This document shows positions 11,858 through 60,985 of a stretch of 64,000 nucleotides of DNA, piece after piece. Each line of letters starts with the position of its first letter. The stretch's first letter is position 1. Made by a program: the position numbers and the translations under genes. This DNA is from Sipunculus nudus (Eukaryota > Annelida > Sipuncula > Golfingiida > Sipunculidae): positions 13,890,664 through 13,954,663 of the forward strand of contig CM049315.1 in NCBI GenBank assembly GCA_026874595.1. Direction: 5' to 3'. Below the pieces are notes generated by a model. That model was not told where the DNA came from. It did no database searches and was given only the letters and a program-made list of their open reading frames with translations.

Positions 11858-11869
11858 AGGAGGCAAAGC

Positions 11870-17500: not shown

Positions 17501-20500
17501 TTGAACCAGGATTGAGAGAGACTAGCTTGAGTATATGTTGGGTATGTAATCACAAGTGACAAACAGTCCATATAAAATCTCCTTGGAAACCTGAAATTAG
17601 GTCACTGTGACCTATATCCTTCAAACTAAAGGGCTTGTAAGTACCCTCCAGAATAATCAAAACTTTGATACAAATCCTCCAATATCTTGATTATTTATGC
17701 ATGGATTGTCATGAATCTTGCCTTGAATACTGTGGTTGCCTTTTTGCTGGCAAGTGTTTTAATTTCGCAGTATTTAAGCCTGGCTAAGAAGAAGCCAACC
17801 ACCGTATTGACCATGACTAGTTTTGTCAGTGTTGGTGCCAACTATATTTTTCTGATTTTTACAAATATTTTTCAATTTTTTTCACTATAAAATGACAACA
17901 AATCATGTAAGTTTCTCAGCTGTGATTCCATCTAGTGTCCCAAAACCTGGTGTGTTTATTAATCACAAGTGGATGCCCTATAGTAATCAACCTGTATGTC
18001 TGTCTGTTTGTCTAGCTGTCTGTATGTCCATCCATCAATAAACTAGAATTTGATTCCAGATGATAACTCCAGATTGGACTGACATATGGATTTAAACTTG
18101 ACTTACATATGGCAGGGCAGGTGTGCTTGACATGGTGTATGAAAACTTGAATAAAAGCTACTCTTTTCAATCAATTCCTTTGAAATTTCAGATTTAAAAG
18201 ATTAAATCCATATGAATATATGCTGTGAACATTAAATCAAAAGTGCTAACAGGGAAAAATGTGCCTTGGCCAAATTTTGACCAAATTTCAGGTATTGATT
18301 TTTCTTTATGCTACAAACTTAAAAAAAATTGCAAAAATCAGATCTAATTTTAGATAAACAGTTGAATCTTGATTAAATAAAATTATATACCTGAAAAAGT
18401 CTCTAGCTTCAGCTATTCTTATGTTAAGTGAGTAAATATATTTCTTGATTTTTTACAACACTTTACACAATACTTACCTAATTTTGGTATGTACATAGAA
18501 AACACAGATCAGTGGTTTTGATATTAGGCAGTCATGAAGTGTAAGAATGGGTTTATAATGAAAAACGGAGTTTTTTCTAAATATGCCGAAGGAACAAAGT
18601 TCCCATAATCCAATTTTCTGTATGGTAGGAGATTTTGGGAACATCTAACTGTATGCAAATTTTGGATTTGTAGGTCAAAAAATTTCAAAACATGCCCTGT
18701 TACTGGCCAGATGGACAACGGACGAAGGACCATGACTGTCACTCAGATGACTTATAGTCAGCTGAGCTAAAAATGTTTAATCATAAGAACAAGGCCTACA
18801 GGCCTAATGCAAACCTGTGCAGAGTTTGGGAGTATGAATGGAGGTTTATTTTTTAAATTTTAATACTGATCCTTTTAAGTCCTGCATATCTACCTTAGTC
18901 ATTATGGTTTCAGCAAAATGGACATTTCGAACCTGCAAGTTTCAGACTAGGACATTTTAAAACTAGAATATAGGTAGTCGACAAGCGACTATGTGTATCC
19001 GCAGAAATCAGAGTGGGACGGGTGAAGTAAGCATGAATTAAGTGGCAAGGGGAATAGAGTGAGGTGTGTTGCACATTAGCATGGATGTCTGCAGCGTAAA
19101 CTTGAATGTAGGTGGTGCCACCTGTCATAAAATCGAGAAAATTGTCCAGGATGTATAAACCTGCAAAATTTCAGGTGGATAAGTCAAACCACTGCTGAAA
19201 TATGAGTGATTTTATCCCAAGGCAGTTGAACAGATGGACGGTGTTCATTAGTGGTTGCAGGTGGCACCACAAGTTTTGCTTATGATGAAGAGCTATGTGA
19301 GATCTATAAACAAGCAAAATTTTGGCCCAATCGGTCGAACGGTTCCCAAGATATGAGCTTGGATGTCTGCAGAGTAAACATGAATGTAGGTGGCACCAAC
19401 TGTCATAAAATCGAGAAAGCTTTCCAGGATGTATAAACCTGCAAAATTTCAGGTGGAGAAGTCAAACTACTGCTGAGATATGAGTGATTTTATGCCAAGG
19501 CAGATGAACAGATGGATGCTGTGCATAAATCGTTGCAGGTGGCACCACCGGTTTTGCCTATGATGAAGAACTATGTGAGATCTATACACATGCAAAATTT
19601 TGGCCCAATCAGTCAAACCGTTCCTGAGATATGAGCTTGGATGTCTGCAGAGTAAACATGAATGTAGGTGGCGCCTTCTGTCATAAAATCGAGAAAGCTT
19701 TCCAGGATGTATAAACCTGCAAAATTTCAGGTGAAGAAGTCAAACTACTGCTGAGATATGAGTGATTTTATGCCAAGGCAGATGAACAGATGGATGCTGT
19801 GCATAAATCATTGCAGGTGGCACCATCAGTTTTGCCTATGATGAAGAGCTATGTGAGATCTATACACATGCAAAATTTTGGCCCAATCAGTCAAACCGTT
19901 CCTGAGATATGAGCTTGGATGTCTGCAGAGTAAACATCAATGTAGGTGGCGCCAACCGTCATAAAATCAAGAAAGCTGTCCAGGATGTATAAACCTGCAA
20001 ATTTTCAGGTGGAAAAGTCACACCACTGCTGAGATATGAGTGATATCATCCCAAGGCAGATGAACAGATGGACACTGTGCAAAAATGGTTGCAGGTGGTG
20101 CCACCAGTTTTGCCTATGATGAAGAGCTATGTAAGATCTATACACATGCAAAATTTTGGCCCAATCAGTCAAACGGTTCCCGAGATATGAGCTTGGATGT
20201 CTGCAGAGTAAACATGAATGTAGGTGGCGCCACCTATCATAAAATCGAGAAAGCTGTCCAGGATGTATAAACCTGCAAAATTTCAGGTGGAGAAGTCAAA
20301 CCACTGCTGAGATATGAGTGATTTTATCCAAAGGCAGATGAACAGATGGATGCTGTGCAAATATGGTTGCAGGTGCATTTTTAGTGTATGTTATAAAGCT
20401 ATCAAAGGGCTACATTTGTGCAAAATTTTAGCCTGATCAGTCAAACGGTTCCCGAGATATGCGGGTTTATGTGTGAAACAGACGCATAAATGGACGCTAG

Positions 20501-23500
20501 GCAATGAGGAAAGGCCAGAGGTCAACCAAAAATGAGGGCGCAGCAGTTCACATGTGACCTGATGATAAACCCAATTTGCTTAAAATGCAAACCAAGTTTT
20601 TTCAAACAGTTGAAAGAAATAGTTCCAATAATCTGTGAATTCTGCATCTAAACATTGTGCCTAGACATCTAGACTCTGTGTCTAGAGGTCTAGACACATT
20701 GTCTAGACACCCCCCCCCCCCAGCCAGGTTAGTTGCCATGGTGATGTCTGGACCCCACCTGTTTGTACTGAGTGACCTCTTCACTTGGCTGCTGAAAGTC
20801 AGCATGTTGTCAAATCTGTTTTCAAATACAGAAAGCCTTTTTCAATTGGCTACAATGCTTTTTTAAAACCGTATTTACCCAATCTATTTTTATAAAACTG
20901 GCAGAACCCTATCATTGAATAATTCTTGTAAAGTTTAAACCAATCAGCGTAACAGTTTCATCATAAATCAGTGTATAAGCCGTTTAAAATTACATTTTTG
21001 TTTGTAAAAAAACACATCAATGTAGGTGGCACCACCAATACCTCAAAATCAGTAATGACATATGTGACAAACATTGGGATATAATTTGGTGATTATAGCT
21101 CTAGCCGTTTCTGAGATTTTAATTTTAGTGTGCTTTTTTGGACAGATGACTAAGTTCAACCTCCTGAAACTCAGCCAAAAATCTCCAAACTGGAACCATT
21201 TGAACAAAATTGAGAGAGATTGTTCCAGGGATCATTTCTGTGAAATATTGGACAATTTGGCTGGACAGTTTCAGAGGAGAAGATTTTTAAAGGTTTTTAA
21301 GCTTTTTTGCTATAAAATCTAAATTAATGCAGATACCCAATAATAAGCTGCAGGGCACCAAGTTTCACATGTGACTAATTCTTACATGTAATTTGGAGCT
21401 GCTAGCTCTGACGGTTTCTGACTTACAGCCATGGACTGGAAAGCCAGCCCTGGACGGTGGACGGCTGATGGACGACGCTGCGCCATCGCTTAAGCTCACA
21501 GGTTCGCTAAAAAAATACATGTAGCCAGGCACGAATCATAGCAATCCATGCATTGATTATAGAGCTAGCATTTGTATCACATTTTTTTATTATTCTGGGG
21601 TGCACAAACAAGCCCCATAACTAGGAGGATATACACCAACCTAATTTCAGCTATCCAACAGGGAATTCCATCACCTCAATGAATGTATAGTGAAATGTTT
21701 CTTTGTCAAATGGTTAAGATTTGTGCAAAGTCAAGGCATGCATAGTTGGATGGAGGAACGACAAGGGGTGTCGCTATAGTGAACTGAGTTTACAATGGAT
21801 GCATGGGTTACACTGTCCAGTGTCTCAAACTTAAAACACATGATGTTGTAAATGCACACTTGCTTAAACTATGAAAGACAGATATTTATCATGGTCTAAC
21901 AATCCAGGTCAGGTAAGCCTAAAATGGGAGAAAAGATGATACATGAAAAAAAACCCAATTTTTTTACTATGAAACCAGGATCATTATAAAATAAACTGCC
22001 AGAGCAGAGACTGCCAACTTCACCAAAATTCTGAAACACAAGATCATTATATAGAAGAACCATGTGTCATGGCTCACCAATTCTGCAAAGCTCTGCTCAG
22101 AACAAGGGCAGCTATAGTCAGGTGACAACTGAGCATGTTTATCCTTTGAAACTTCATATGCAAAGCTTTTCCTTATACAAGTGAATGACAAAAGTCTTAA
22201 TCTACCCTAATTTGTGATGGTAAAAAGCAAAATTTCATCAAAATTGAAGACCTGTTCATTACCACTGCAGAGGAATAACAAAAATATAATATCCAAAGGC
22301 AGTGGTAAAATATATGTGTTCATATTTCTACATACAGTTTAGTGATGATGAGGTCATAATCATGCCAGCTGACAAAATTAAAATGGTACAAGTGGCTCAT
22401 GGGCCATGATGCTTAGCTGAATTCAAGGAGCCTTAAACAATGGGTAAAATGAATCTTTGAGTGCTCAAAATCATGCATTTTGCCTACAGACCTTAGATAT
22501 AGGTTACGTTGACCTTATTCTATATCCATCTGCTACCATTTGTGCCAATCTGACCAAAAGTCAAATGTTCTTTCTCACAGCTCACAGAAAAATGGTCACA
22601 GTGACATTCCAGGTATCCAATGAGATTTTGTATGGACCTCCCTGAAAGTCATGTTTGAGGATTCTAGGCCAAATGGATACAATGAGTGCTTAAAAATCAT
22701 GTTTTTTTCCCCTTATTTGCATTATATGGGTCACCATGACCTAATTTTAGGTTTCCAGGGAGATTTGCCTTCGACAAATACTAGGTCTAGTGTTACTGTT
22801 TGTGTCCTTTTAACAGCAAGACCACTTTATTTGAAGGTCTTAAAAATAGAGAAAAACAATGCTTAAACAAGGGACCTATGGGTCACGGCGCTCAGCTGAT
22901 CATGATTGAACTATAAATGTATCACCATTGTGATACTATATTTAGTCGACAAACCTTATGAATATCATGGACCTATTAGGCTATTATAAAGGAATATAAT
23001 GTAATATGCGAGTAAATCATGTATGAAATTACCTGACTGATGGATTAATATGGAGTAAATATAGTGGTTTATTTTTTATTTATTTGGGAGCTGTTGAAAA
23101 TAGCAATATATTTGAGCAAATATGAATGCAATGACAGTACACTAAGCAGTGGTAGAATGATGATAAGGCTATTTGTTGAAGGATCTATGGTGTATAGAAA
23201 TCCGCAAGATTTCAATTTGACATATATAATGTTATTATTAACTATGCTGAAGAGTGGATTTATGAATTGTGACTGTATGACATGATATCTCTTAGGTCTT
23301 GACAAGGTACATTATATTGATGCCCACCACATCTACATATTACACAATATTGGCATAATTTCTGGCACGTACATAGGCAACAAACAGTTATACAATTTAT
23401 AAAAATATGAATATATCTGATTCAACTTGTTCTCGTTTACTGAGGCTGACATTGGGATGGGGTTCGGAGAAGGAAACAGTGTGGGCAGCAAGGAGGGTTG

Positions 23501-26500
23501 GATGTAGAGAGAAAAGGAGATAGAGAGAGAGGGAGGGAGCATTCAACAGTACTTAAACACCTGGAAGGTTAAAATCTAAAATATTATGAAATGTAGATAA
23601 AGTCTGAGAGAAAGAGGTAATCTAGGCTATGGTTGGTTGATATGATTGAAGAAATTGTTGCAAATAATATTTTAAGATCTGACCTTGCGCTTTCATTGGA
23701 TACCTTTTTGACAGGCTGTTGACAGTTCAACATTTTACACATTTGTCTAATGAGATCCATTTTTTTAAATTTAAACTTTAATTAAACTGTTTTTTCTATT
23801 TTATGATATGTATACAGTTGCTATAAAATCCCCACTCCACAGGCGGAAGGACTTGATGGAGGGGGGGGGGGGTTACGATGGGAGTTACTAAGCCTCTGTC
23901 TCTCTGTATATATTTTCTTCAAATTATTAAATTTTATGCTATAGCAATAGCACTATTGTTGACAGTGCGAAGGAGCAAGGACTTAGTGGGGTGGGGGAAG
24001 GGGATGGTGGGAGTTACAATACCCTTGCATATACGTACAGGATATGAAATTTAATTAATCAAAGCTTACAGGAAAAAAAAGTTTATTCATAATTATTAAA
24101 TATTTAAAACAGGCAAGAAAGCTAGAGAAACAAAGCAAATAATTTTAATTCCCATTCTTCTGAGCCAGGAAATTATGAACAATTTTTACATAAATTCCCT
24201 TTTTTATAACATCATTTTTTTCCAGGTTTGAAAATGTAACTATACATTTAGAGTATAACATATATATGTGAATATTTCAGTTGATTCACATTTCTTAATT
24301 GCATCAACATATATATCTAATAAATTAGGTTTATAGTACCTGTCAACATAATGGGGTGGAGGGAGGAAGGGAGGCATAAGGGTGAGAGAGAGAGAAAGAG
24401 AGAGAGAGAGAAAGAGAGCTAGAAAGAGAGAAAGGGAAAGAGAGAGGAGAAAGGCTCTCTGGTAATTACTGCCTGACCCAGCCTGACCCAGACACTCACA
24501 GAAGCAGTAGGCAAGGAGTGAAGGTGTTATGTAACAGCCTGGAACACTGTTAACCAATGACTTGATGTAAACATTCAAGACATGGTGCTATAAATATGGG
24601 TCACTGTGCTCAGCTGAAGTTGGCCATGAAGGTAAAAATCTAAAATAATAATGGAGATCAAGTCTAAGATGAAAAGGTAATATATGCCATGGCTGGTTGA
24701 CATGTTTGGTTTGTATTGATGAGTGAGAAATTGTTGCAAATAATATTTAGTGACCAAACCATGCATTCTCTAATGTCAAAATTGAAGCATGTGAGCTGTT
24801 TGTGAACATAAGATGTATATTATTACCATGATCATTGGCTGGCTTTTTGATAGTTTGTTGACAGTTCAGTAGTTTACACATTTGCTCAATTGGATCTATT
24901 TTACATAATATATATTATTAAATATATGTATTTTTATTTTATAAAATGTATACAGTTGAAATATAACTGATGTCTCCAGTCCCCAGATGCAAGAACCTGT
25001 TGGTGTTGGGGGGGGGGGGGGAGGGGGAGGGCTGGAATGATGGGAGTTACAACATCTCTGTATTAACATAGTCTATATACATATAGGATTTCCACTTAAT
25101 TCAACAATACTTACAGGATTAAATAGTCCATTCACAATTACATAATATTTAAAAAAGGAAAGACAGACTGTTAGACAAACAAAGCTGATAATATATTTTA
25201 ATATTTTAAAGTTTTTCATCTGCAATATTACACATCTGAATACATAAGTTGCTTTCAAATTTCAGACTTTAATGGCTTAAATCCATACACATACAGCATA
25301 TGAAAGTTATTTCAACAGTGCTTAAAGGAAAAATTTCATAATTAGTATATATATTTAATGATAATTGAGAGATGATGGACAGACAAGAGCTGATCACTTT
25401 ATGTTCCATTCTCCTGGGGCAAGAATATGTTTCAATATTAGATCTTAATTTTTTCTAATCCAATTATCTTTCAAATTGAAAAAAATTGTACACATTTGCA
25501 ATAATAACTAATGTCCCAGTGCACAGGTGACGGTGAGGTGCTAAGGATCAATGACAGCTGGGCCGGGGGGGGGGGGGGGGGGGGGAAGAGATGGGATTAA
25601 CAACACTTTTGCATAAACATTCAGGGCAAACAAAGCCTGATCTCCAATTCTGCTGAGGCTCGAAAATAATGAACACATGTTTGTATTAGATCCTCATTTT
25701 TTTATTTTAAGTTTAATTTGTATACATTTCCAATATAACATATATTTCTGAATATAAACGTTGATTCATAATTCTAAATTGCATCATCATAAATCTCAAT
25801 CTTGTCATGTAACACCACATCATGCATACAAATGTATATTTATATATTCATGGGGGGGGGGGGGGAGGGGGTGTGATATGAGAACAATTGTACACCTGTC
25901 ACAGCAGGGGATCTCCCCCAGTGACTGAAACAAATCAGGAACCCTGGCATAGCTGACTTCCAGTGACCTGGAGTGGCCTACCTGCATCTGGAACAAAGCA
26001 AGTGACTACAATAGACCCTCAAGATAAAATTCAATAACTAGCCTAATTTTCAACCTTTTAGTTTCAAATTTCAGATTTAAACACATTAAATACTTATGTT
26101 TACATTCTGAGAAAATTAAATCAACAGTACTCACAGGGAAAAAATGTGCCATGGTCAAAGTTGGGTAAAATTTCAGGTACTGATTTTATGTTTATGCTAA
26201 TAACTTATAAAATTTACAAAATACAGATCTAATTTTGGGTATACAATTGAATCTTAATTAAACAAAGTTATATACTTTAAAAAAATTCTCTAGCTTCAAT
26301 AATTTTCATGAAACCTGAGTAAATATTTTTCCTGATTTTTTACAAAGTCAATTTTGTTTGGGCACATAACTTAAAACAATTACGCAATACTGACATCATT
26401 TCTGGCATGTGCATAGCGAATGTATAGAAAAATATGTATATTATATATGATCAAAGTCAGATCAGTGGTTTTGATACTAGGCAGTCCTGAAGTGTAACAA

Positions 26501-29500
26501 AGGGTTTTTAATGAAAAAATGAAGTTTTTCATTAATATCTCGAAGGAATTAAGTTCTGGTGACCAAATTCTTGGCATGGTAAGGGATTTTGGAGACATCT
26601 TACTGTATGCCTAATTTAAGGAACTTAGAGCTGAAGCTGGGGAGCTGAGCTCTAGCAAACTGCATAACACTAGGTTGAAGTAAACAATATGTGACATGGT
26701 GCTTGAAAACTTGAATAAAATCTACAGTTTTTGATCAACTGGTTTCAAATTTTAAATGTTAACAGTTGAAATGCTAACAAAAACATGCTTTGAAAATTAA
26801 ATCCACAGCAGTTACAGGAAAAAAACGTGCCATGGTCAAAGTTGGGCAAAGTTTAAGGTACCAATTTTTTATTTTTGCTAATATTTCAAAAAATTTAAGA
26901 GATTTTGATCAAATTTTGGGTATACAATTTAATTTTGATTAATAAAAGTTATATTACTGGAAAAAAGTGCTTAGCTTTAACATGTTTTGTGTTAAGTGAT
27001 CAAATTTTTTTCCTGATTATTTACAAAATGCATTATGTTTGGGCCCATAACTTTTTTAAATTATATAATACAGACCCAATTTCTGGCATGTACATAGGAA
27101 CCATATAGAGGATTATTTATGGTAAATATGAGGAAAAACAGATGAGTAGTTTTGATATTAGGCAGTCCTGAAGTGTGAAAATAGGATTTTAATAAAAAAT
27201 TGAGGTTTTTCCTTAATTTCTCAAAGGAACGAAGTCGCAAAGACCCAGTTTTCGGCTTGGTAGGAGATCTTGGGGACATCTAACATTATGCTGAATTTTG
27301 GGTTCCTAGGTCTAACGGTTTCAAAACGTGCCACATCTACGGACGGACGGACGGCACTACTTACCACAGCCACATTACGAGCCTTTTGTGTGTCACTGAC
27401 ATTGTGGGCCTTTGTGTGTGTACAAAACACCCTTAGGAGACTACCATTCAGTGTACACACCAGAGCCACATTGTGAGCCTTGCTGTCAATACACTGTGGG
27501 CTTACCACAGAAACCACTGTCTACACATTGTGAGCCTTGCAGTCAATACACTGTGGGCTTACCACAGCAACCTCTGTCTACACATTGTGAGCTTTCCTGT
27601 CAATACACTGTGGGCTTACCACAGCAACAACTGTCTACACATTGTGAGACTTTCTGTCAATACACTGTGGGCTTACCACAGCAACCACTGTCTACACATT
27701 GTGAGCCTTGCTGTCAATACACTTTGGGCTCACCACAGCAACCACCATCTACACATTATGAGCCTGTATAATTGTTAACTTAGTCTCTATGAGCTTGCAA
27801 CATTGTAACCTATATCCCTGCATTCTGGGCCTATATTATAGTGACATTGGTCTGTACCCTGTGAGCCAGTATCACTGCAACTTTTATCCATACATTTTGG
27901 GCCTCTAATTTTAACTTTTTTTGGACTCTGTGGACCTGTAACTACACAGCCTCTGCCCATGCTCTCTCAGCCTTCAGTCTTTGCATTCTATATTTCTTCA
28001 CTCCAATATTCCAGTGATCATTGTACACTAAGCCTATTATCTTGTTTTAATTTGGGTCTCTACTCTGTGAGCCTGAAATATGGTAACCAATATCCATGTG
28101 TGGTGGGCCTATCAGGGATGTAATAATACACTTCAAGGTTATCAATCAATACTGGTCTTAAAAAAAGGATCACAAGATAATACACAATACCATGTGCATT
28201 ACTTTGTTCCAAAAGATTTATGGGGGAAAAATGTGTTTTCTCATAACGAAGGCCTTTTTTCCATGACAAAACAATTAAATTTAAAACCTTTGTCAGAAAA
28301 ATATTAAACAGGCCTTCAATGAGAAGGATGGCAGAGGAGTCAAAAGCTGAATGAAACTTTCGAACATCCAATGACACTGGCAACAAGATAAAGAATAGCA
28401 ATTCTTTAAAGTGAACACAGAGTTTAATCACTTGTAAAATCAATACAAGTCTTGATGCATGCATCACAATATTATACACAATACCATATATGTATTTTTG
28501 TTTACAGAAAGATTTACTGGAAACATTTTAAATGTTTTCTCGGAAAAAAAGGTCTTTTTGCATTTCAAAACTGAATAACATTAAAAGCCTTTGACAGAAA
28601 AATATTAAGACCTTAGACCGTCAAATAAAACTTCCAGTAAGATAAGGAAAAGCAATTCTTTTATGTGAACAAATATATTAATCAATTATAAAACGTATTA
28701 AGATCAGTTCCATGACAATGAGACAAACATGAAAATTCAAATTTACTAATAAATGCATCTTTCACACACATTCTGAAAAGAGGCAAAACTGTTCAGTTTT
28801 AAAAAAACTTATCTTCAAAAATGTCTTAGAAATCCTATTATGAAGTCAATGTATTTTAAAAATATTAATTATATTAAAATTGTGAGATCAAATTCTCTCA
28901 TCTCTACAATTTTTAAATAAGTTACATAAAACCTGTTTTGGTCATTTAGTCTTAAAAACTTAATCAATTACTCTGACAATTTTAGTATCCTTGGATAAAG
29001 ATGAATTAGTGTTTGGCACTAATTATTTTACACTACTTAGCATTCATTCCATAACCAAATATATTTAAAAAGTTAAATCACATAAAAGGGAGTGGTCACA
29101 TAAAGTTCCAATTTTAAAATCTCTTTTATAACCTTAAATGCTTCAAATAAGTGCAGTTACTCAAAAATCTTATAATCAATTAATAAAAATAAAATGGTTA
29201 CAGAATGATAAAATGATCAGTGCAAGTATCCTGAAACACAATTTAAACAGTCTCATTACCCAACAATTGAAAAGCAAGGTATACCTTGTGGGCCTATTGA
29301 ATATTTAGTACGAACCATCACTGTGTCTAACATTCTGAGCTTCCATTTTGTCCAAGCTTGTGGGCCTACAGATCATACTACCTACCACATCTAACACTGT
29401 GCATTCTACATTCTTGGCAGAACAAATGTGTTCATTCTTGTGGGCCTACAGAATATTTAGTACCTACCATCACTGTGTCTAACATTATGGGCTAAACATT

Positions 29501-32500
29501 TATGTCCAAGCTTGTGGGCCTACAGATAATACTACCTTCTACAAATATCATTGTGCATCCAACATTCAGAGCTTCAATCTGGTTCTTACTTGTGGGCCTA
29601 CAGAATATTTAGTACCTACCATCACGTGTCAAACATTCTGAGCTTCCATTTTGTCCAAGCTTGTGGGCCTACAGATCATACTACCTACCACATCTATCAC
29701 TGTGCATTCTACATTCTTGGCAGAACAAATCTGTTCATTCTTGTGGGCCTACAGAATATTTAGTACCTACCATCACTGTGTCCAACATTATGGGCTAAAC
29801 ATTTATGTCCAAGCTTGTGGGCCTACAGATAATACTACCTTCCACAAATACCATTGTGCATCCAACATTCAGAGCCTTCAATCTGGTTCTTACTTGTGGG
29901 CCTACAGAATATTTAGTACCTACCATCACTGTGGGTCTAACATTCTGAGCTTCCATTTTGTCCAAGCTTGTGGGCCTGCATGCCATACTGGCTTCCACAA
30001 CTATCACTTTCCATTCTACATTCTGGGCAGAACAAATGTGTTCCTTCTTGTGGGCCTACATTATTCTCATGTTCTTGCATATCTGTCAGTCACTGGTGGC
30101 ATAATACTCTGGGCTTACATTTATCGCTTTACTGTTCACAATATGTTCAATTTGCAATGGACATTGACACCTTAACTCCCTATTTGGCTTAATTGTTTAA
30201 GGTCAAATATAAATGTTACATTTTTAGGTTATACTTCTATGATTTTTGTTATTTCCTCATGAATATCTATTAATTATTAACTGTTTGCCCATAAAGCTGG
30301 ACAGATGAAATTTAAATAAGGACTTTTAAAACATAACTCATGATTTCAAAGTAAAAATTCATGAAATTATGCAAAATAATGTGAGACCACATTATTTCAG
30401 TAATATTACAAAATTATGCTGTGTGTTTACTTTCTTCAAATATTGCTTCCTGGCAGCAGATTTTACCAATAATGGACATTATTATGCAGACAAATATAAT
30501 TATTGATCTATTCAAACGTTTAAAAAATTATATGTATATTTGTCACATTTTCAATGAATATTTGCCTATGCTCTACCTTTATCTTCCTTTGAAATTTATT
30601 CAGTTTTCTCAATTGAACAGGTGTAGACATTTTACTGTCTATAAAAGGCCATTTTCCTAAAGGTAAACATTTATTTATTTTTCATTCTTAGTTATAAAAG
30701 TCTATTTAATTTAAATATCATGAGACAAATAATATTCAGTTTTAGGACTCATTCATTTTCAAACTTGTACATGTATAATTTTTATGTTAATTGTATTTCT
30801 TTAATCTAAATTACCTAGACCTGCTATGAACTAGATGCAAATGGCCATTTTCCTTATTTATCTCCATATTCACTTTCTCCAGAGGTATGGTGTAGATATT
30901 ACAGTAATATTTATGCTAACTTTAAATTCATGAGGTACCTCATTGTCCAAATTCCTGACTTTGTTAATAGGTATTATATGAATTATGAACCTGGTGCAAT
31001 TCATCTCCGAATCAATTGTTGAAATTTTCATAAATATAAAATGAAAATTAGGCAAATAATTACATGTTAAAAATATTATAGTGTAAATTTTTAAAAATAA
31101 ATCTGAACAGTAAAAGATAATTACACCTAAAGCATTAAGATTATTCACCCCGACAGCTATCAGTGTGTCCAACATTCTAAGCCTTGAAATGTGTCCCTTC
31201 TTTGGGCCTTCAGGCCTTTTATTTACTCATCACCACCATCACTGTTGGTCCAACATTCTGGGCTTACATTTATGTGCAAGCTTGTGGGCTTACAGTTATT
31301 TTTACCTGTCACAACTACCATTTTGGGTCCAAATGTCTGGGCATAAAAATTAACTAGAAAATTTCAGCCCGATCGGTCTAATGAGTACAGAGATATGGGG
31401 GTTTATGTGTGAACACAGACGCATAGATGGACGCAGAGCACAGAGGAGAGGTCAGAGGTCAAAACAAAATTTGGGCTCAGCAGTTCACAGACCTGAAAAA
31501 AATCACGAGTTTAGTAAAATTCCACTCAGTGGTTACGGTCTCCAGACATCTAACAGCAGCGTGGAGAGATGAAAACATAGTATCCGCAAAACTATTCTAT
31601 TAAACCTACCGAGTGTGCCTAAGTTGTTGGCGGTAATGATATATTACAATATTGTTAGCGATAAAAACGAATTACGTTATGTTGTGTACGCCACGCAACA
31701 TTTTTAACATAATCATCACGAATTAAAAAAATAATTTATAAAGCGAAAGTTTTATAATATATTGACAAAAAATGAAAATAATGCATAGGACGTCGGGGGG
31801 GGGGGGGTCAGCTGGTACATCATACCAGGGCTCGAAGGGCCTGAACGGGGCCCAGGCAGTCCAAGAATTTTCTTTAGAGCACAATAATGTTTTAAAATAA
31901 ATAATTTTTTGGTTACACTCATATAATTTTGAAAAAAAATCTAGCCTTAGACGACCCATGCTGGCCTTGATGTGCTTTATTTCATTGGGGCCCGGGGAAT
32001 AATTGGGTTGCATATATAGTGGCCAGTTAAACGCCTGGGAATTAAAGTATTCTCATTTGTTATTTGTATTAGCTAGTATACAGACTTTAGTTTTTTTTAT
32101 AATCATGGTGATTTATTTTGCAATGGTAATATGGTTGTGTAATATTGATTATTCTCAACAATCCGGATGAAAATTGGCTTGGACTGTTAAAAATTTTTTA
32201 AAAAAATTGTGAATAATCAATTTAAGAATGCATCGTGACAGCTCCATTAATTTCCCTTATTATCACCCATGCAGGCTGTTGTGAAAACATCATCATGTGT
32301 CATTCTGAAAATCCTATTTTTTGGACTTATTAAGTTTCATTTCCAAATTTAATGCATTCTAAAATTATTACTGTACAAAACCACACACTTTTTATTAGCA
32401 GTTATGTCTGCTTGTGGTCAAATAAAAAATAATTCTTAGCAATGGTTTGGCCCCGCTTGGATTCTCGTGTGGCAGCAATGGAGCATGAATAGACTGTCAA

Positions 32501-44500: not shown

Positions 44501-47500
44501 CACTACCTGACGTGGAGTTTTGGTTTCTCCCTCTACCACCAGATGGAGCACCTGTCAATGTATAAGTTATTAATATTTTTTTCTAGTAAACTGAATATAT
44601 TTATAAGGTAAAATATGCTTCTTTCTTTTATTTTTCTTGGTGAAATCCTCTCTCTTTCTATTTGGTATTTTTTTATCACCGATTTAGTCGCTGGTGGTGT
44701 CACATAAAAGCAAACATATCAATCTTTATCATATGTTCATCTATCTCTGTATCTATCTCTGTATCTATATCAGTATCTAGAAGTATTTACAGTTATATTA
44801 GTATAAATATGCATCACTTTCTCTCACTCTCCTTTTATACACGCACACAGGCACCTAGATTCACTTGTCCTTCTCCTGCTTATACCTGCTGAGTACCAAA
44901 TACTCCTGATATGGACTACCTGATGTGGAATACTTTTTTTATTGTCTCCCCCTAACCCCCCCCCCCCCCCCCCTTGGAGTTGAAGACAATGGGGGAATGA
45001 ATCCTGTTTTTCTATATAGATTTTAAGTGTAACACTACATGTAACCATTATTTAGTTGTGTAGTGTGATTTTCAGAAAAGCATTTGGCAATTGTGCGTCT
45101 GTTGTGTGCAACAATGTTTCTTAATGTGGCGTACCTGGAAGTAAAAAAATATGATCTACAGAAGAAAAGTATGTTTCATCAGGTATTTTTGTTCCCAAGA
45201 ACAGGATTCACAGATGCACACATACACACACATCAGTATCTCTATCTCTATACTGTGAATATAATTGAAGATGATACCTTTTTGGCTGTTCCTGATGATA
45301 TCTCCCCCTGACTCAGCATGTCAACTATCTCTCCCATGTCACTGGAGGTGATGCAGCTTGAAAGGAAGGAATAAGGGTCAATATTTTATAGCTTATTTAT
45401 ATGCAGGTAACATGTAATACAGCAGGAAAATACCAAATAAAAAACATGTATGAGCTCGTATAAATCTACTTTTTCTAAGTGCACATTTGTACATCTTCCA
45501 AAAAGAGGAGCCCCTGTCTCCAGATTGTGACCTTCATCTTAAAGTCCATGTACAGTGGTTATACACTAAAATCACTCTGTTGCAGGGATTACTTGGTTTC
45601 AACACAAGGCAGCTAGCACTGGGCTATAAATGTGCAGCATTTTTAATCTTCTAAAGTTTTAACCTATGAGCCTATCAGTTGAAACACAACATATTGATGT
45701 CCATATCTGTACATGTATCTGACTGCATACTTAATATTAAATCTTTTCAACAAATAAAGTCTTTACCAGAAACCATGTCAACATGTTTGGATGATAATTT
45801 TTAATAGAAGTGAGTTGATGTAAAAAATTCTGAAATGAGTTTATTGACCACCAACTGTCAATAGCTCACAGAGTATATAAATATGAGGTCAAAAGTTATC
45901 TATAAAAAAAAATTCTCAAACAATAATCATGGAAAATACACAAACCAAAATCCAGGATCAGACTATGACTGAAAATAATATAAAGACTTATCACTAATAA
46001 AATATAAGAGAACTACCTGTCCTGTATATCAATTTCCTCCTTGTTTAATATTCCCAGCAGCTCATTCAGCATCAGGTTAATGGTGGGCTTGACTGCTCTC
46101 TGACCTCCCGCCATAACTTCTTCAAAGAAGGCAGACAGGCTGTCATCATTCTAAAATGTAGGTTAAAAATAACATCAACGTTCTTCCAAAATCATGTCCT
46201 TAATAACCCTAAAAATACCAATAAAACAAGCAACCTATGAGTCATGATACTCAGCTGATTGGAAAATTTTGCCATAACATTCACAACTGTGTATTATTTT
46301 TTTAAGAACTCTGTTATATTGTTCAAACTGTTGATGATGAGTGGGAAATATGTTTGAGACAGATCCTTAATCTTTAAATTTTATCATTCATAGTCAGGTC
46401 TAAGATTTGGGAGTTAACTGATAACACTAACATCATGCAGTCTCATAATCCATTCTGAACATGTGTATAAAACTAGAATACAGGTAGTCAACAAATGACG
46501 GGTGAAGTGAGGCATGGATCGAGTGGCAAGGGGAAATAGAGTTACATGTGTTACATATTAGAATGGATGTCTACCACATAAACATGATTGTATATAGCGC
46601 CACCTGTTATTTGAATGAGAAACTATCCAAGATGTATACACATGCAAAATTTCAGGTGGAAAAGTCGAACCACTGCAGAGATATGAGTGACTTAATCCCA
46701 CAGCAGACAAACAGATGGACGCTGTGCAAAAATGGCAGCAGGTGGCGCGACCATTTTTGTGTATGTTATAAAGCTATCCGAGGGCTACATTTGTGTATAT
46801 TTTTTTTCCTGATTAGTCAAACGGTTCCCAGAGATATGAGCTTGGATGTCTGCAGCATGAACGTGAATGAAGCTGGCACCACCTTTCATAAAATCAAGTA
46901 AGCTATCCAGGATGTATACACATGCCGAATTACAGGTAATTTTTTCAAACCACTGCAGAGATATGAGTGATTTTAACCAAAGGCAGACAAACATATGGAT
47001 GCTGTGCAAAAATTGCAGCAGGTGGCGCCACCATTTTTTGTGTATGTTATAAAGCTATCCATGGGCTACATTTGTGTAAATTTTTTTTCCTGATTAGTCA
47101 AATGGTTCCCGAGATATGAGCTTGGATGTCTGCTGAACATGTATGTAGGTGGCGCCACCTGTCAAAAATTAAAAAAGCTATGTAGGATGTATACGCATGA
47201 TGAATTTCAGGTTAATTAGTCAAACCACTGCAGAGATATGAGTAATTTTAACCAAAGGCAGATGAACAGATGGACACTGTGCAAACATGGTTGCAGGTGG
47301 CGCCAACATTTTTTGTGTATGTTATAAAGCTATCCAAGGGCTACATTTGTACAAATTTTTTTCCTGATCTGTCTAACGGTTCCCGAGATATGTGGGTTTA
47401 TGTGTGGAAACAGATGCACAAATGGACACTGGGCAGAGAGGAAAGGTCAGAGGTCAAGGCCAATTGGTTAGGAACCAGTTCACATGTGACTCGATAATTG

Positions 47501-50500
47501 GTGTAAGTTTCGGGAAAATCAGTTTAGTAGTCTCAGAGGAGTTCTCTGGAAACGAACGCGGCAGTGGCGGAACCTGGTCAAAAACATAGTATCTGCAAAA
47601 CTTCGTTTAGGCGGATACAATTATCAAAAACATATATTGCACCACTGGTCTCACAAAAAAAGAAGAAGCTTTCTATGATGTCTTTTGCCAGTTTATTTCA
47701 ATGCAATTCAGGAATTTATCACTGAGATAATTTTAATATGAGTTTTTAGTAAAAAAGACATAGTGACATATCACATTTGTAAGTCAAATTTTAAAGAAAT
47801 ACTTGGCCTAATTTTTTTCAAACAATCCATATTGCCCAGAAATAGGTCTGACACATGTAATCCATATCAACTTTAATATCTTAAGTCAAAATTGTATCAT
47901 GTATATCAACTGTAATTTTGTATCAATTTTACTCATTATGAGCCAATTGTTGTGAAATATCAAAATTTGTGACATTTTTAATGCACTGATAGGCTAATTC
48001 TATGCATATTTTTCATGCTGTCAGGTAAATATGTGTTCAAGAGGCACAATAATTCAATTTTTAAGGTCCAATCAAGTTTTGTTTAACAGCCTTGAACACT
48101 CAGAAAATTCTTGACTTTTAATGTGCTCAAAATTATGTTTTAGCAGTGAATATAGGTAATGGTGACCTAATTTCAGGTTTCAAGGTATATTTACCCAGAA
48201 CCTCCTTGATCTTGAGTCATAAGTTTCTGGGTCAAACAGTTATAATTTGTGCCCTGCTAACAGATGGCTGACCATCAGAAGGGCAACACACAAAGAACCA
48301 TCACCATAGGTCAGCATATATTGAAAATCAGCTGAGATTTAACTGCCATATTAATCATAATGGCACACCAGTGATGAAAGGACGAAAGAGGGATTACAAA
48401 GTATACCCATGTGTTTTGAATTTTCTCTTAAAAAGAATTGTCCATTATTGTTAAATTAATATGAAAACTACAGTTCTTACTTTTGGTACTGCTCAGTGCA
48501 TATAAAGAGCACTTTATGACCTTCATAAATCATTCCTTAAGAAAACTGAAGAAGAGTGTCACATTATCAAGAAAAACACTTGTAATTAACTTATATTTGG
48601 AACAAACACTTGTACAGTCCTCAACAACTGTTGTGTATGCGCATGCTGACCCCTACAAAATATGAATGATCTGTGATGACCTCTACTGATAGAAAGTTTT
48701 ACTAGTGTATAATCAAGTCTGGAAGACTGGGAATTTTTTTAATGATGGATATTCAATACAACAGGATGCTGTGTACACTAATGATGATAAAGCTATGTAG
48801 TCTAATTACCACAAGAATAACACTGTGTTCCACTGACAGGCTGTACTGTTCTTGTAGTCTGCTTCTCTTCTGTTCAGGCAGTTCTGGCATCCCTTCTTGT
48901 AGCTCATCAATATTAATGACCTGGTCACTGGGCAGGTCAGAGGGCACTGTGGCTGTGGTGTACAAATGCAAAGGAGGCAGGTTTGGTTCTGGCATGAAGC
49001 GGTAGTCTTGTATCTTCTCCTTGTCTCGCATTGCTATAGTTTCCCTACATGGATTGTAAGACAAATAGATCAACCACAACACCATACCTAGTAACCTAAG
49101 TCACCATGTCATTTTCATTATCTATATGGTGGTGTGGCAGTTCTGCATAGCTGTATCTTTACATATACTTCCAATACAGCTTCTAGCTGAAACATGTTAC
49201 TGTAACTTGGACAGGGCATAACCAGAAAAGAGAACTAGAGAAGAAAGAAAGAAAGAGGGACAGAGAGAAGAAAGAAGAGGGGAAAAAAGAAATGAGAGAA
49301 AATTATGAAGAAAGAGAGAGAGAGAGGGAGAAAAAGTGAGACAGAGAGAGAGACACACAGACATAGGAGAATGTATGTTGATAAACATTTATCAGGTTTT
49401 CCTACACTACTACTATTTATATATTCACTAAGGCAAAAGCATTACACTAATTACTCACCCTGTCTCAAAATCAAATGACCTGGTTTCATTGATAACTTCT
49501 TGACCAGCTTCTAAGAGACCAATGTGTCGCTCAATCTCATATTCTACAATGACAAAAGTCAATAATGTAGCACCTGCACACAAAGACAGATTGTCTGCTT
49601 ACATTTATTATCACCATTATGGTTGGCTTTTTTTGTGAATTTTGTATTCCTGTCATTTGTGTGTTGCCTTATAGTGTATGGAATTTTACAAGATGTTATA
49701 ACACTTAACCATTCCCACAGACAGACTTGCTTACTGTTAGCAGGCCATCAACATGGCTCCTGCTCCATGTTTGTAATCAAAGCATAGCAGAATGTCCCCT
49801 TACAAAATCCTTTTTGAAGAACGTTTTATTTTTACTTTTTGAATGATACAATAAAAGAGTAATTTCTCCGACCCTTGAAATCAACATCAATATTTTTTTA
49901 ATGTTTTTTGGTGGAGGTGACCGCCTCAAACTTTAATGCTGGTTTAACTAGGTACTCTGTGCATCTGCAAGAATCCATTCTAGTTGCAGACTCTGTGACA
50001 GGCAGGAAACACATGATTATCCTGGTGTTATCTGGAACCTCCAAAAGATGCACCTGTTTGTGAGTGAAACACGACTGTGGGTTACAGTCTCCCCATTAAG
50101 CATGCAGAGAGCTCATACTGGGCGGGAGTTCACTGTGAAAAATCCCACCACTCCCCATTGCTTAGGTTTATCCTGACAACAGACTGAATATTCTTACCAA
50201 TGGCTTTTGATACATATCTTATGCTGTTAAGGTTTTTCACTTCACTTCTAACTCCTAGTGGCTCCCCCTGCAGGTTGACTGACACATTAGCATCAACTCG
50301 AAGATTTCCCTCTGAAAGGTAATACAAAAAAATATATATGGGATATTTAAGTAATTCTGTAATGTTGAAGAATAACTGTTAACTTAAATACTAAACAAAA
50401 TGTAACCTTATATCAGAATGCTGAGCGTATCAGTTACCTTTAGATCTCTATCTAAACATGAATGTCAAGAAAAAAAGTGTCATGTAATTTTACACTGTAC

Positions 50501-55240: not shown

Positions 55241-55643
55241 CTGAAAGAGAGGGAGTGGAGTCATATACAGGAGGACTGTACTTAATAAGCAAATAAATAA
55301 CATTAGATCTGGCCCAGATATACATCAGAAATGTAGTTAACACTCTTTACTTAAACAATTAAATACATAAATATTTCTAATGTGCTAGACTACCGGTATA
55401 TGCAAAGTAAGACATTATTGTTAACTATGCAGTCCACGGAATAGCTCCTGCAACCTTTTGCCTAAAACTTTTCAGACTGTCTCCTTGTTCAAACAAGGGA
55501 CCCACGAGTCACATCGCTCAGCTGAAGTTTGAAATTTTAGCAAATGCAAAATATGCTGATTTCTATTGTAATGTTTTTCATATATATTAGCATATGTGTA
55601 GCTAAGAGTAAGAAGAAATGGCCCTCCTACTTGGTTCTAAATA

Positions 55644-56751
55644 CAGTTAAGCCCACTTTGTGTCATATCGGTTAATAGAAAATCCTGTTTATTGTCACAT
55701 AAATCTGAAATCCCAAACCATTTCCTATAAAAACAATGGTAAATCTGACAGTTTAATATCATGGAATATTGTAATAATCCCGTTTATTGTCATGCTTGGA
55801 ACCCTTGACAGTGATACCAGTTCGCAGTTGATATCACATCAAACCCCGACACGGCAATCAACAAGGCCAAGAGCCTAAAATCGGTCAGGCGTATCAAACG
55901 ATCGCATCTCCCACCTGTGTTCGGCAGGCAAATGCAATGATGCATGCTGGTCACTCCCCATCACTTAGCTAATTAACATCTTAAGATACCACAGTAATCC
56001 AGATCATTGCGTTTCTTCGAAGATTAAAAAGGGCAATGTTTTCAAACACATATCATACATAATTATCTCCTGGCCTTTGAAAGGCCGCTGTTTACATCTC
56101 AGTGACATTTCGCCAAGATGATATGAAGCACAAGCTCTAAACGTTGCTTACGACTGGAAATCCCATTTAAGGGTCATTGAAAAGCTGGAGGTTTTGTGAG
56201 CACTGGAGAAGATACCCGGTCAAAAACCTCAATCGCGGCGAAACTTCAGAAAGTTGACAATGGCATGACTATGTCCGCTCCCTGAACAGTCCTATCATAA
56301 AGACGGTCATGGAAGTTTGAGTCATCAATAAGATATCCAGAAAATAAGGCGCAATAGTTGGGGAAAGAATTATTTAGTAAAATAGTTTGTTATAAATAAC
56401 GTTATAACTGTGCCGCATATTTCCAGATATTTTACTTCATGACCCAGACGCTACGTCTCTTTCTGTTGTCAAGTCAGATTTTTGCCAGTTATTGCGGCAT
56501 GCGGCACAAAACTTACAGGAAATAAATTGTCAGTTGTGCATAAACGTAATTTGATATGCCGTTGTGCATTAAAAATATTCATTAACTTTTCTGTTTCCTG
56601 TTTATTGACGATTTATTTAATATCATTTGAGCCATAACGCTTCTTCTATGACTCAAAATGTATCGATGTTTAAGCCCGGATAATGTCACATCCTGGTTAT
56701 TATCATAATTTATGCATGCACCAACGATATGACAGTAAGCGGGCTTGACTG
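55644..56751. mobile_element. TA-flanked mariner/pogo-like element, 1.1 kb
   Basis: The left end CAGTTAAGCCCACTTTGTGT and the right end (reverse complement CAGTCAAGCCCGCTTACTGT) match, followed by TCATATCG in both. TA flanks each side. The interior has no transposase frame; the internal 'cctgtttattgtcaca'-type motif recurs. It lies just upstream of the first visible GATB exon. Confidence 0.6.
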
Positions 56752-57344
56752 TATATGATTGCAAAACTTAAACTCTGACAAGACTGTCAAGAAGAAAAAC
56801 AGTAAAAGTTTTGAAATACTGTGATGCATATGAAAATTTACAGATGGACAGGCAAGTGGACAGATGGACTGATATCTTTATTTCATTTTCAGGGGAATAA
56901 TGCATTTAAGTTAATATTATACCCTATTTTTTAGTTTATCCACTTTTTCCATTAATAGTTTTTATCAGATTCGTATTTTTTTAATAAACAAATTTTATAA
57001 ATTTATAATAAAATATATCTGAAAATATAAGTAAAAATATCAGAATTGCAAATTTTATTATTTATCCAGAGTATAGCTCACACCAGGTAACATTATGCAT
57101 ACACATATATTTTATTTTTTTTTAAATCACAAATGTTTAAACTGAATTTAAAAGAGAATTTGCCACAACAGGGCATCTTGAAGATTATTCCTTGAATTAC
57201 TATTAACAAGTTTTGGAGTTTTCAGTACATGCTTAATTTTATTCACCAAAATAAAAGATTCAGTAAATTGGATAAAATAAAAACATCTTTTCAAATAAAG
57301 TATACACTGTTGGTTGAATGAGGGACAAACAATATCATTAGGCT

Positions 57345-57692
57345 AATTTTACGCCTAATTTTTTGTATGTCAATAGAAAATATATATGGAAGAATATGCA
57401 TACTAAATATGATCAAAAACAGATCATTGATTTTGATATTAGGCAGTCTTGAAGTTTAACAACGGGTTTTTAATGGAAAACAGAAGTTTTTCCTTAATAT
57501 CTCGAAGAAACCATGTCCTAGTGACACAATTTTCTGGAGGTTAGGAGATTTTTGGGACATCCATTAGTATGCAAAAATATTCGATTCGTAGGTCCAATGG
57601 TTTCAAAACGGGCCCTGTTAATGGCCAGATGGAAGACAGACAAAGGACCATGACTATAGCTTAGATGACTTATAGTCAGCTGAGCTAAAAAT
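57345..57692 (+). mobile_element. Family B fragment, 3' end only
   Basis: Shares the 'ttgatattaggcagtc' segment and the terminal hairpin (AGCTTAG/CTGAGCT, TGACT/AGTCA, loop TAT) with the other copies. The GGAC tract is reduced to a few units. Confidence 0.55.
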
Positions 57693-58341
57693 ATTCTGGA
57701 AAACATGCGGGCTCGGGTAATGGTACAGACTGCACATGTTCTGATTGGGAGAGTTGCCAAAAGTTTGCAAGTCATGTACATTTTGCACTTGTCAAGTGAC
57801 TGACTGTTTACATAGCCCGTGGTTACAATGTCTCTGCTCATGATTATTCATTGAAGGTATATGCGATTCAGGTAACATGGAGTTTAGGTCAGGTCATCCA
57901 AACTGTATAGCTTGTACTGCCACCCCAACATCTCAAGAATACAACATCAATGTTTGGGTGGTAGGCCGCTGCTAAGAATGTCAGTGATACAAGGTAGTGG
58001 ATACTGTTACTGTTTATGGTATATACCCGCACCCCCCCCCCCCCCTTCCTTGGTTGCTCTAATTCATACAAAGTGACATTTTGTAATCTGTTAAATAATT
58101 TCCTACTACTGCAAATATTAAATAAATGTTAGGGCATTTTTTACCCTTGAATTTATTGTATCAATAGAAATTTCACACCTGAAGAAATGACAAATAAACA
58201 TTTATGAGATCTGCCTTCAAACACCAGGCTTGGTGAGTAATGCAACACTTCTGAATTATCACATGAGAAGACAGGTAGAAATTAGAATAAACACTTAGGA
58301 GCATGTATAGAATCCAGTCTACATGGGAGAACTTAAAAAAA

Positions 58342-60985
58342 AACAAGGGACCTATGGGTCACGACGCTCAGCTGTTATATATGATAAGAAAATATTATTT
58401 AGAAATGAGGCACATGCTGGTTTTGTGTGGTAATAAATATAAGCTGTATTATGAGTTGTTGTTGTTTAGCTTATGTATGATTTTGATAGTACCTTTGGAG
58501 ACAGGGAAGAGGATTGATTTCATTTATTTTATTAACAAATGGAGTATTACTGTCACACAGATTTTGACTTGGCCATATAACTTATAAGCAGAACATATAA
58601 TATAAGAGTTTAACTATTTATTAAAAAAATTACAAATATTGTCCAAAATATAATTTTTATTAAAAATAATAAGAGAATCATATGATTTTTTAAAATGAAA
58701 TATAACTGATATGATTATTAAAATAATATTAAAGAATATATTCATGAATGCATTCATGAATACATTTTGAAAGTATTTGCACGAGTATTCATATACTTTC
58801 ATTTTTTCCTGAATTCCCATTCTCTATGCAAGAAATTTTATAATGGAGTACATAATCATATTCGTATTTAAATACAATTACAAAGTATTCGCACCATGTC
58901 TGGTATTTATTCAGTTTTCACCAAACAATGATGTTGAGAATCCAGAATATACAAAATTCACACATTTAAATAATGATCATAAGTACCTGGTTTTATGGCT
59001 TTTATTTATATTAAAAAATAACTGTAAAAAATTCATTTTGGACTAATTTCACATCAATGTACACACTAGACACAGTAGGAATCTAGGTTAATATTATCAA
59101 CTGCATCTTTGTCTATCATTAATTTCCTTCATATAATCCTTAATGATTAGTAATGAATAATATGATTTACTTCTTTATCATTAAAAATGAACTGAAAAAT
59201 GCCATAGGTGACTGCATGGTGTTATTTGGAATATGTGACATTCTACCCATCGATACAAGATTCTTATATCATCAGAAACTGCTAGTTAATTTCCTGTTAT
59301 TATAAACTAACAAATTCCTTTTCTATTTTTCTTTAATTTGTTATTTAAAACCAATATAAATTTATTAATTTATTGTTTATTGTTATGTTGTTGGTTAAAA
59401 CTACTAGATGAGTTGGGTTGAACACCTGGATCAACTGTGGCTGGCCATAAGCTGCCTGGATTCTCCCCTCAAGCGTGCATAATTTGATGAAAGGTCAACA
59501 AGGTCAACATACAGGTGACTCAAGAGGGGCTGGAGAGAGCCAAAGTCTGACAGGGTCTCATAAAAAACATTAATAAAAGCTACAATATTTGGCAAATTTC
59601 TTTCAGCTTTCTAAACTAAAAAGCTGAAATCCTTATGTGTGCATGATATGAAAATTATATCAACAGTGCTCACAGGAAACAAACGTGCCATGGTCACAGT
59701 TGGGCAAAATTTAAGGTACTAATTTTATATTTATACTAATAACTTATAAAATTTGAAAAATTCATAACTAATTTTGGGTATTCAATTGAATCTTGATTAA
59801 ATAATGTTACATCCCTGACAAAAAAGATCTCTAGCTTCAGCAATTCCCTTGTTAAGGGAGTAAATATATTTCTTGATTTTTTACAAAGTGCATTATGTTT
59901 GGGCCCATAACTTAAAAAAAATACACAATACTGACATCATTTCTGGCATGTGCATAGTGAATGTATAGAAAAATATGTATATTATATATGATCAAAGTCA
60001 GATCAGTGGTTTTGATATTAGGCAGTCTTAAAGTGTAACATTGGGTTTTTAATGGAAAAATGAAGTTTTTCATTGATATCTCGAAGGAATTAAGTCCTAG
60101 TGACCAAATTCTTGGCATGGTAGGGGATTTTGGAGAAATCTAACTGTATGCCAAATTTAAGGAACTTAGAGCTGAAGCTCGGGAGCTGAGCTCTAGCAAA
60201 CTGCATAACACTAGCAATATGTGACATGGTGCTTGAAAACTTGAATAAAATCTACAGTTTTTGATCAACTGGTTTCAAATTTTTTGTTTTAACAGTTGAA
60301 ATGGTAACAAAAACATGCTTTGAAAATTAAATCCACAGCAGTTACAGGAAAAAAACGTGCCATGGTCAAACTTGGGCAAAATTTAAGGTACCAATTTTAT
60401 ATTTTTGCCAATATTTAAAAAAATTTGAAAGATTTTGATCTAATTTTTGGTATACAATTAAATTTTGATTAATAAAAGTAATATTACTGGAAAAAAAGTG
60501 CTTAGCTTTAACAAGTTTTGTGTTAAGTGATAAAATTTCTTTCCTGATTATTTACAAAATGCATTATGTTTGGGCCCATAACTTTTTAAAATTAAATAAT
60601 ACAGACCTAATTTCTGGCATGTACATAGGAATTATATAGAGGATTATTTATGGGAAATATGAGGAAAAAAAGATGAGTAGTTTTGATATTAGGCAGTCCT
60701 AAAGTGTGAAAATAGGTTTTTAATAAAAAATTGAGGTTTTTCCTTAATTTCTCAAAGGAATGAAGTCGCAAAGACCCAGTTTTCGGCTTGGTAGGAGATC
60801 TTGGGGACATCTAACATTATGCTGAATTTTGGATTCCTAGGTCTTATGGTTTCAAAACGTGCCACATCTACGGACGGACGGACGGACGGACGGACGGACG
60901 GACGGACGGACGGACAGACGGACGGACGACGGACAATGGACCACGACTATAGCTCAGATGACTGATAGTCAGCTGAGCTAATAAT
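58342..60985 (+). mobile_element. Complete family B element (Helentron/Pearl-like, non-autonomous), 2.6 kb
   Basis: Head AACAAGG with a small GACC/GGTC hairpin, then GCTCAGCTG at 58,366-58,374. The core has a long 5' part and two diverged tandem units of roughly 670 bp. A (GGAC)n/(ACGG)n tract follows at about 60,871-60,932. The 3' hairpin is at 60,951-60,979: outer arms AGCTCAG/CTGAGCT, inner arms TGACT/AGTCA, loop GAT. Its 3' arm contains CAGCTGAGC, the exact complement of the 5' motif. No Rep/helicase frame is visible, so it must be mobilised in trans. The architecture matches bivalve Pearl/HINE elements; assignment to Helentrons is inferred. Confidence 0.7.
60871..60932 (+). repeat. (GGAC)n tract of the complete family B element
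   Basis: About 15 units of GGAC with few interruptions, immediately before the terminal hairpin. It is the longest such tract in the window. Confidence 0.9.

Follow-up and report, generated by a model that had tools for sequence, protein, structure and literature searches.

Why should repeat families with unrelated cores carry ends of one design? The question is raised by a 64-kb window of the Sipunculus nudus genome (C10:13890664-13954663), which is rich in interspersed repeats with tandem cores. We analysed this window and searched the whole 1.43-Gb genome (153 contigs) for its families, here called A, B, C, D, and F. A first-pass annotation had described A/B, C, and F as starting with a head (AACWAGR), a small hairpin and a motif, and as ending in a two-tier hairpin (an outer and an inner stem parted by an unpaired position) whose outer arm is the complement of the motif. 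One trans-acting rolling-circle machinery was proposed to act on them all. We conclude that the repeats are very probably HINEs, non-autonomous Helentrons of the Helitron2 group, which Helentron proteins would mobilise in trans via rolling-circle replication. The grammar of their ends is real, yet it is of a known kind: shared folded ends have already been described in oysters and flies.

We compared the end structures with shuffled sequence. Under a loose definition, scanned on both strands, the window held 28 two-tier hairpins (13 + 15), although many of the 28 are one hairpin read on both strands and some are not element ends; the same count in 20 dinucleotide shuffles averaged 5.75 (range 1-8). 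A strict definition (8 bp, a 1x1 mismatch, 5 bp, and a 3-nt loop) gave four hairpins per strand, five of them distinct and all of them A or F ends; 400 shuffles averaged 0.04 and never exceeded 2. Thus, two-tier hairpins occur beyond chance. The joint structure, in which a head, small hairpin, and motif are followed downstream by a two-tier hairpin holding the complement of the motif, was found four times, always on the + strand, and in none of 20 shuffles. Two of these four matches are element ends (F, and A at 58,342/60,980); in the other two, the partner of the head is an internal palindrome (26,625 and 60,166).

The heads are less distinctive than had been annotated. AACWAGR by itself is not enriched (46 observed, 45.5 expected), and the head with its small hairpin (five on the + strand, none on the -) stays within what shuffles give (on average 0.93 per strand, at most 6). 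The fold of the head module stands out clearly only in F (z -5.4, aided by a second hairpin in the F motif), as against z -0.95 in A, -1.5 in C, and -1.0 in D. Such head modules, several of which fold no better than shuffles, are what chance structure in AT-rich repeats would predict. The tail and joint controls, and the boundaries in other copies described below, contradict this explanation; it is refuted for A, C, and F as whole elements and hardly conceivable otherwise.

Do the paired ends belong to the same element? Three heads (22866, 55492, 58342) and three hairpin tails (40725, 57657, 60950) belong to family A, besides diverged heads and tails. Both ends lie within one copy in A (22866/40755, 55492/57691, and 58342/60984) and in F. 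The claim that the outer arm is the exact complement of the motif is off by one base in the A copy at 58,342 (GCTCAGCTGT). Family C, annotated with a head at 18961 and a tail at 47589, has no window copy with both motif and tail. Its motif (18,995) lies inside element D, and the tail at 47,589 belongs to a copy with a head at 46,471 whose motif went in a deletion of ~30 bp; the annotated pair thus stems from different copies. A complete C copy with both ends exists elsewhere in the genome (L074). The longest exact end-to-end complement within one copy is 10, 10, and 9 nt in A, 11 in F, and 13 in C (L074). For D it is 8 in the window copy, inside 11 bp with one mismatch, and 10 in copy L073.

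Published convention reads these elements in the direction opposite to the annotation. What was annotated as the 3' two-tier hairpin is the 5' subterminal inverted repeat (subTIR) of a HINE together with an inverted repeat (IR), and the annotated 5' head and mini-hairpin form the HINE 3' palindrome end. By this convention the window elements run on the minus strand, and the microsatellite adjoining the A two-tier hairpin (ACGG on the + strand, GTCC-type on the -) agrees with that orientation. On the minus strand, an element starts after a T or a T-run with the subTIR, which in A, C, and F folds into an imperfect hairpin with the adjacent IR. At its other end come subTIR', complementary to the first, then a short palindrome and finally YCTWGTT at a T.

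Read in this direction, the families have the anatomy of HINEs. Complementary asymmetric subTIRs, for which ~11-15 bp are expected in HINEs, are present, A being slightly under 11. In A, C, and F the 5' subTIR has an adjoining IR (folding z -5.4, -2.5, and -4.7, respectively), and a palindrome lies beside the 3' subTIR, with stems of 4-6 bp in the A, C, D, and F heads. In total, subTIR pairing and the small 3' palindrome occur in 4/4 families and the two-tier hairpin in 3/4. For A, C, and F, empty sites and F flanks show a T-rich or TT target without target-site duplication (TSD). None of the 20 window open reading frames (ORFs) of at least 100 codons matched a Rep, helicase, or endonuclease at E 0.1. 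The annotation of Helentron-like ends is upheld: the subterminal repeats are complementary, one of them has an IR at its side (A, C, F) and the opposite end a palindrome, insertion is at A/T-runs without duplication, and the cores are tandem. We rejected a canonical Helitron (Helitron1, with 5'-TC, CTRR-3', a hairpin ~11 bp from the 3' end, and insertion at A|T), because the ends found here are T/subTIR and YCTWGTT and because a 5' hairpin and subTIRs are present.

The element boundaries recur in other copies: the heads and tails of F and D and the tails of A and C withstood the refutation test set by the annotation, namely copies bounded elsewhere than at these ends. The genome search with F scored 40 places of 1161 candidates; they start at window 34060-34068, 21 of the 40 at 34066. 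We compared 21 F copies (20 fetched plus the window copy), selected for a head match. All 21 start at AACTAG, preceded by A in 20, and their left flanks differ, except that L009 has the window flanks. The F tail is recognisable (at most 3 mismatches) in 15 of the 21 and is followed by AAA (12), ATA (2), or AAC (1). In the tail searches, the 39 other scored copies for each family end at window 60985-60995 for A (best of 778 candidates) and at 47620-47636 for C (best of 2358). Copies L071-L073 and the window diverge before AACAAGG at the D head; at the D tail, similarity among L072, L073, and the window stops directly behind GCTAAAAA.

Empty sites gave the A and C heads. With the A element at 22866-40754 taken out, its two flanks (22796-22865 + 40755-40860) align across the junction with an intact B unit, agreeing at 93.6% of 173 columns; a single A-run is present and nothing is duplicated. 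Against a second B unit the figure is 80.9%. A C copy in Helentron locus E61 is missing from its relative E60, again with no duplication; the window offered no paralogous empty site for the C copy at 46471. Judged by eye, an A element was the target of F copy L021, which sits at a run of A (compare window 58606). These sites bear on another explanation, namely that the repeats are terminal inverted repeat (TIR) transposons or miniature inverted-repeat transposable elements (MITEs) moved by a cut-and-paste transposase. Short inverted repeats do lie near both ends, and the bivalve Pearl element is described as a MITE (PMC7492417; this and all other papers are cited for the portions of their text available to us). 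We rejected this explanation as very improbable: the repeats are subterminal and asymmetric, the aligned empty sites lack a duplication, and insertion is into A/T-runs.

Families C and D show how ends may change. The annotated C head at 18,961 is not a free end: it lies inside D, and the same 173-bp outer segment is present in L071-L073. The fourth head type, which had suggested a further family, is real in the form of D (40 scored places of 1607 candidates, from a query that began 3 bases before the head and so speaks to abundance more than to the boundary), but the D tail has no hairpin (folding z +0.46 versus shuffles). C and D have a common core and different ends. Most simply, read-through beyond the C 3' end would have reached a new terminator, and a new 5' end would have been gained as well; with a C end inside and new ends outside, D looks like end replacement by read-through.

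A and B, for their part, have a common end sequence and different cores. This, and the common core of C and D, is what one would expect if the grammar were inherited through common descent with core replacement and reflected no constraint. However, the subTIRs of A, C, F, and D look unrelated although each is the complement of its partner, and the hairpins of A, C, and F follow a single geometry. Paired sequences that bear no resemblance between families are not what simple descent produces, and we consider this explanation unlikely. The structure may be selected rather than inherited, which would agree with the compensatory changes reported for two Helitron2 elements, Helitron-1N1_CQu and -1N2_CQu (PMC3627910). 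Diverged A/B copies (43153, 4139) showed decay by eye and not compensation.

How do these elements compare with known systems? Cg_HINE elements of Crassostrea gigas consist of a 5' subTIR, a complementary IR, a microsatellite (GTCY/GTCC/GTCK in several), a tandem array, a 3' subTIR, and a palindrome; they insert at T-rich or TT sites without TSD, and some families are unrelated in every module while others have common flanks and unrelated arrays (PMC7492417). Module order, insertion habit, and lack of TSD are alike in the window elements. In Cg_HINE, however, 1-12 bp are said to separate subTIR and IR, whereas the hairpin of A, C, and F is built from an outer stem of 8 bp, an unpaired position, an inner stem of 4-5 bp, and a loop of 3 nt. 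A Cg_HINE array cluster also keeps one specific flank pair, whereas here one core (C/D) has two end pairs. The bivalve Pearl elements CvA, CvE, and CvG differ in sequence and have a common structure (PMC11136912), a likeness to the window families that goes by description (PMC11136912, PMC7492417). Mite HINEs and DINE-1 have much the same anatomy as oyster HINEs (PMC4067079). DINE-1/HINE-Mo and Helentrons share with the window elements the subTIRs, the IR by the 5' subTIR (DINE-1), the 3' stem-loop, TT insertion, and a variable number of T, and with this genome proteins of the Rep/helicase/endonuclease kind; their autonomous partner shares the ends, whereas none such was found here (PMC4067079). 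In Helitron2, as in the window, the 5' asymmetric terminal inverted repeat (ATIR) forms a 5' hairpin and the 3'-ATIR precedes a 3' hairpin, with compensatory changes (PMC3627910). Similar ends occur in fungi (PMC5148889). Pattern scans of viral contigs and prokaryote genomes for the end pattern gave 0 matches.

We then asked whether the genome encodes suitable proteins. Helitron_like_N gave 143 matches (195 candidates, 150 scored). Three ORFs of 2235, 2249, and 2426 aa (L059, L060, L062) hold DUF6570, OTU, Rep, PIF1 helicase, and a C-terminal Exo_endo_phos. Judged by these domain matches, each is predicted to carry the Helentron set of Rep, helicase, and apurinic-like endonuclease in one protein. 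L059 and L062 also match the STPRs repeat, below its cut-off. Open Helentron frames are present in the same genome as the repeats; one trans-acting machinery for all the families finds no support in the listed places around Rep genes (below).

Two candidate ends near Rep genes were rejected. For a possible Helentron 3' end (E59 15704, with an 11-nt partner at 4008), homology with another copy runs past the partner. A look-alike hairpin (L069:761, C11:50376164) 9.1-9.9 kb from Rep domains at three loci was considered as the end of an autonomous element, for a 'G' family. The C7 copy and the Rep-linked C17 copy continue past the T-run, the C2 copy begins at it, and many other copies are tandem arrays of ~60-70 bp, so this is not a shown end. 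The hairpin repeat itself (L069:755-880) lies near several Helentron Rep genes; on contig C139 (G000) several copies recur every ~4669 bp, with tandem sub-copies of ~60-70 bp.

What might the 5' hairpin do? On the HINE strand it reads TAGCTCAG-C-TGACT in A, TATGCCCC-C-GCCAC in F, and GTATCCGC-C-AAAAC in C (L074). The C that follows the 8-nt outer stem opposes T in A, C in F, and nothing in family C, and in all three it is among the bases that pair end to end. In the C copy of the window, a 1x2 internal loop occupies the post-stem position. The same mismatch is kept in 14 of the 15 F tails, the other having a different mismatch; 8/15 have one change elsewhere in the hairpin (6 in the stem, 2 in the loop). 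Because these copies are close relatives, with changes elsewhere, the kept mismatch alone does not show selection. Computed DNA energies for the end-to-end duplex and the hairpin, which omit the cost of bringing the ends together, are -14.5/-10.2, -14.2/-5.1, and -13.6/-10.2 in A, -18.3/-12.7 in F, and -17.4/-10.0 in C. The duplex is the stronger in 5/5 comparisons, and the order is the same on the + strand with the composite C (5/5).

These features can be cast as a start and stop switch. An imperfect 5' hairpin on single-stranded DNA would mark the start and the correct strand for an HUH Rep. Once replication arrives at the opposite end, pairing of subTIR with subTIR' would open the hairpin and set the end point, as in the proposal that ATIR pairing destroys the 5' hairpin and so ends replication (PMC3627910). 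The hairpin defect could give strand choice or Rep recognition and let the far end displace the hairpin. Tentatively, from a sample of three families, the 5' hairpin may be kept imperfect at one place in the unrelated A, C, and F as a strand-discriminating Rep recognition point and switch seed. Among bacterial HUH enzymes, one TnpA(REP) needs a conserved bulge, the repair of which harms activity, and another TnpA(REP) group uses perfect palindromes (PMC8266576). A fixed unpaired position, seen here in A, C, and F, is not mentioned for Helitron2 ATIRs in the available text of PMC3627910, and among the paper titles listed by a search none concerned such a position in HINE hairpins, which is not proof of absence. 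It is also conceivable, though rather doubtful, that the 5' hairpin is unimportant and that only subTIR-subTIR' pairing and the 3' palindrome matter: D is multi-copy and the D copies read have no hairpin, whereas the hairpins of A, C, and F agree in geometry though their sequences are unrelated.

Several results weigh against trans-mobilised HINEs with a functional hairpin. For A, C, D, and F, 0/39 listed places each (of 778-2358 candidates) lie within 30 kb of the 128 Rep places. Nor did we find an autonomous element with the ends of any of these four families, including in 41 Rep-region loci (181 kb). Among these loci, L056 has one F tail at ~1 kb from a Rep domain and L066 has one C copy; the F element at L056 points away, so that Rep lies outside it, and the C copy near Rep is a nested insertion, the E61 case above. 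D lacks the 5' hairpin and has complementary ends, so the hairpin is not strictly needed. The C hairpin is only moderately better than shuffles, 6/200 of which fold as well. A recognisable tail is missing in 6/21 F copies: L013 is truncated within the tail, L021 is degraded, and in L020, L024, L027, and L028 the tail was not found in the stretch. The cost left out of the duplex and hairpin energies counts on the same side.

Table 1. Coordinates of repeat elements and element ends in the window
Feature	Position	Strand	Remarks
D-type palindrome end on a different core	6465..6505	-	only ~41 bp in common with D
A hairpin end of another A copy	11824..11854	-	core 10476-11858
A hairpin end of another A copy	18739..18769	-	core from ~18128
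HINE D	18788..21508	-	holds C head (18961) and 278-bp C array; 11-bp subTIR pairing with one mismatch; no two-tier hairpin
Family C end kept inside D (annotated C head)	18961..19002	-	also in L071, L072, L073 (L073: deletion just after)
Family B element, 338-bp units	21514..42434 (approximate limits)	-	split by A insertion; A-type hairpin end ~42402-42432
HINE A, both ends	22866..40754	-	sits in family B element; interrupted by 13.3-kb insert 27354-40684
A HINE 3' end (annotated head)	22866..22899	-	subTIR', small palindrome GACC/GGTC, terminus CCTTGTT
HINE F, both ends	34067..35592	-	hairpin 35562-35592; palindrome end 34067-34102
A HINE 5' end (annotated tail)	40725..40755	-	hairpin with subTIR: 8 bp / C.T mismatch / 5 bp / 3-nt loop
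B-type HINE, diverged A-type ends	43153..44114	-
B-type HINE	46225..48341	-	head 46225, decayed hairpin end near 48328; C copy inside
Stand-alone HINE C	46471..47625	-	hairpin end 47589-47618 present; motif of other end deleted
HINE A, both ends	55492..57691	-	10-nt perfect subTIR match
HINE A, both ends	58342..60984	-	9-nt match; ACGG microsatellite adjoins hairpin

The elements are nested (Table 1). F lies within the 13.3-kb segment that interrupts A. That segment is inserted in the ACGG microsatellite of A and has inverted subterminal motifs (CACATTGTGAGCC / GGCTCACAATGTG) and tandem arrays of 57 bp and 154 bp. The two halves of the A core are parted by a palindrome, TTAGAGCTGAAGCT..AGCTGAGCTCTAG (11038, 26625, 60166), that looks like a fossil end. 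At 15886-15920, a decayed tail abuts a decayed head (AGTCAGCTAAGCTTACAAAAGGACC), forming a tail-to-head junction. Exons of a GatB-like gene (PF02934) lie between the repeats at 48756-54230 on the minus strand; the splitting of this gene and the size of the genome point to a eukaryotic host.

By hand tally, 16 HINE insertions or fragments at window 2200-61000 have one orientation and 1 has the opposite (17566-18113; two-sided binomial ~3e-4, post hoc and ignoring nesting). This one-way insertion of 16 of 17 is possibly new. Genome-wide, no strong bias was found among the listed places (A 17/22, C 19/20, D 19/20, F 14/25), and oyster HINEs occur in both orientations (PMC7492417).

Taken together, the end grammar, the compensatory change, and the switch model have already been published, and what this locus may newly add is the particular families, their nesting, the D/C end replacement, and the fixed unpaired position. 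In the portions of the literature at hand, start and stop recognition by Helitron2/Helentron elements is not settled. Four multi-copy end types beside open Helentron frames form a natural mutational series, with the same geometry in different sequence and with D lacking the hairpin. They would make the pairing switch of PMC3627910, and a model of mismatch recognition, directly testable.

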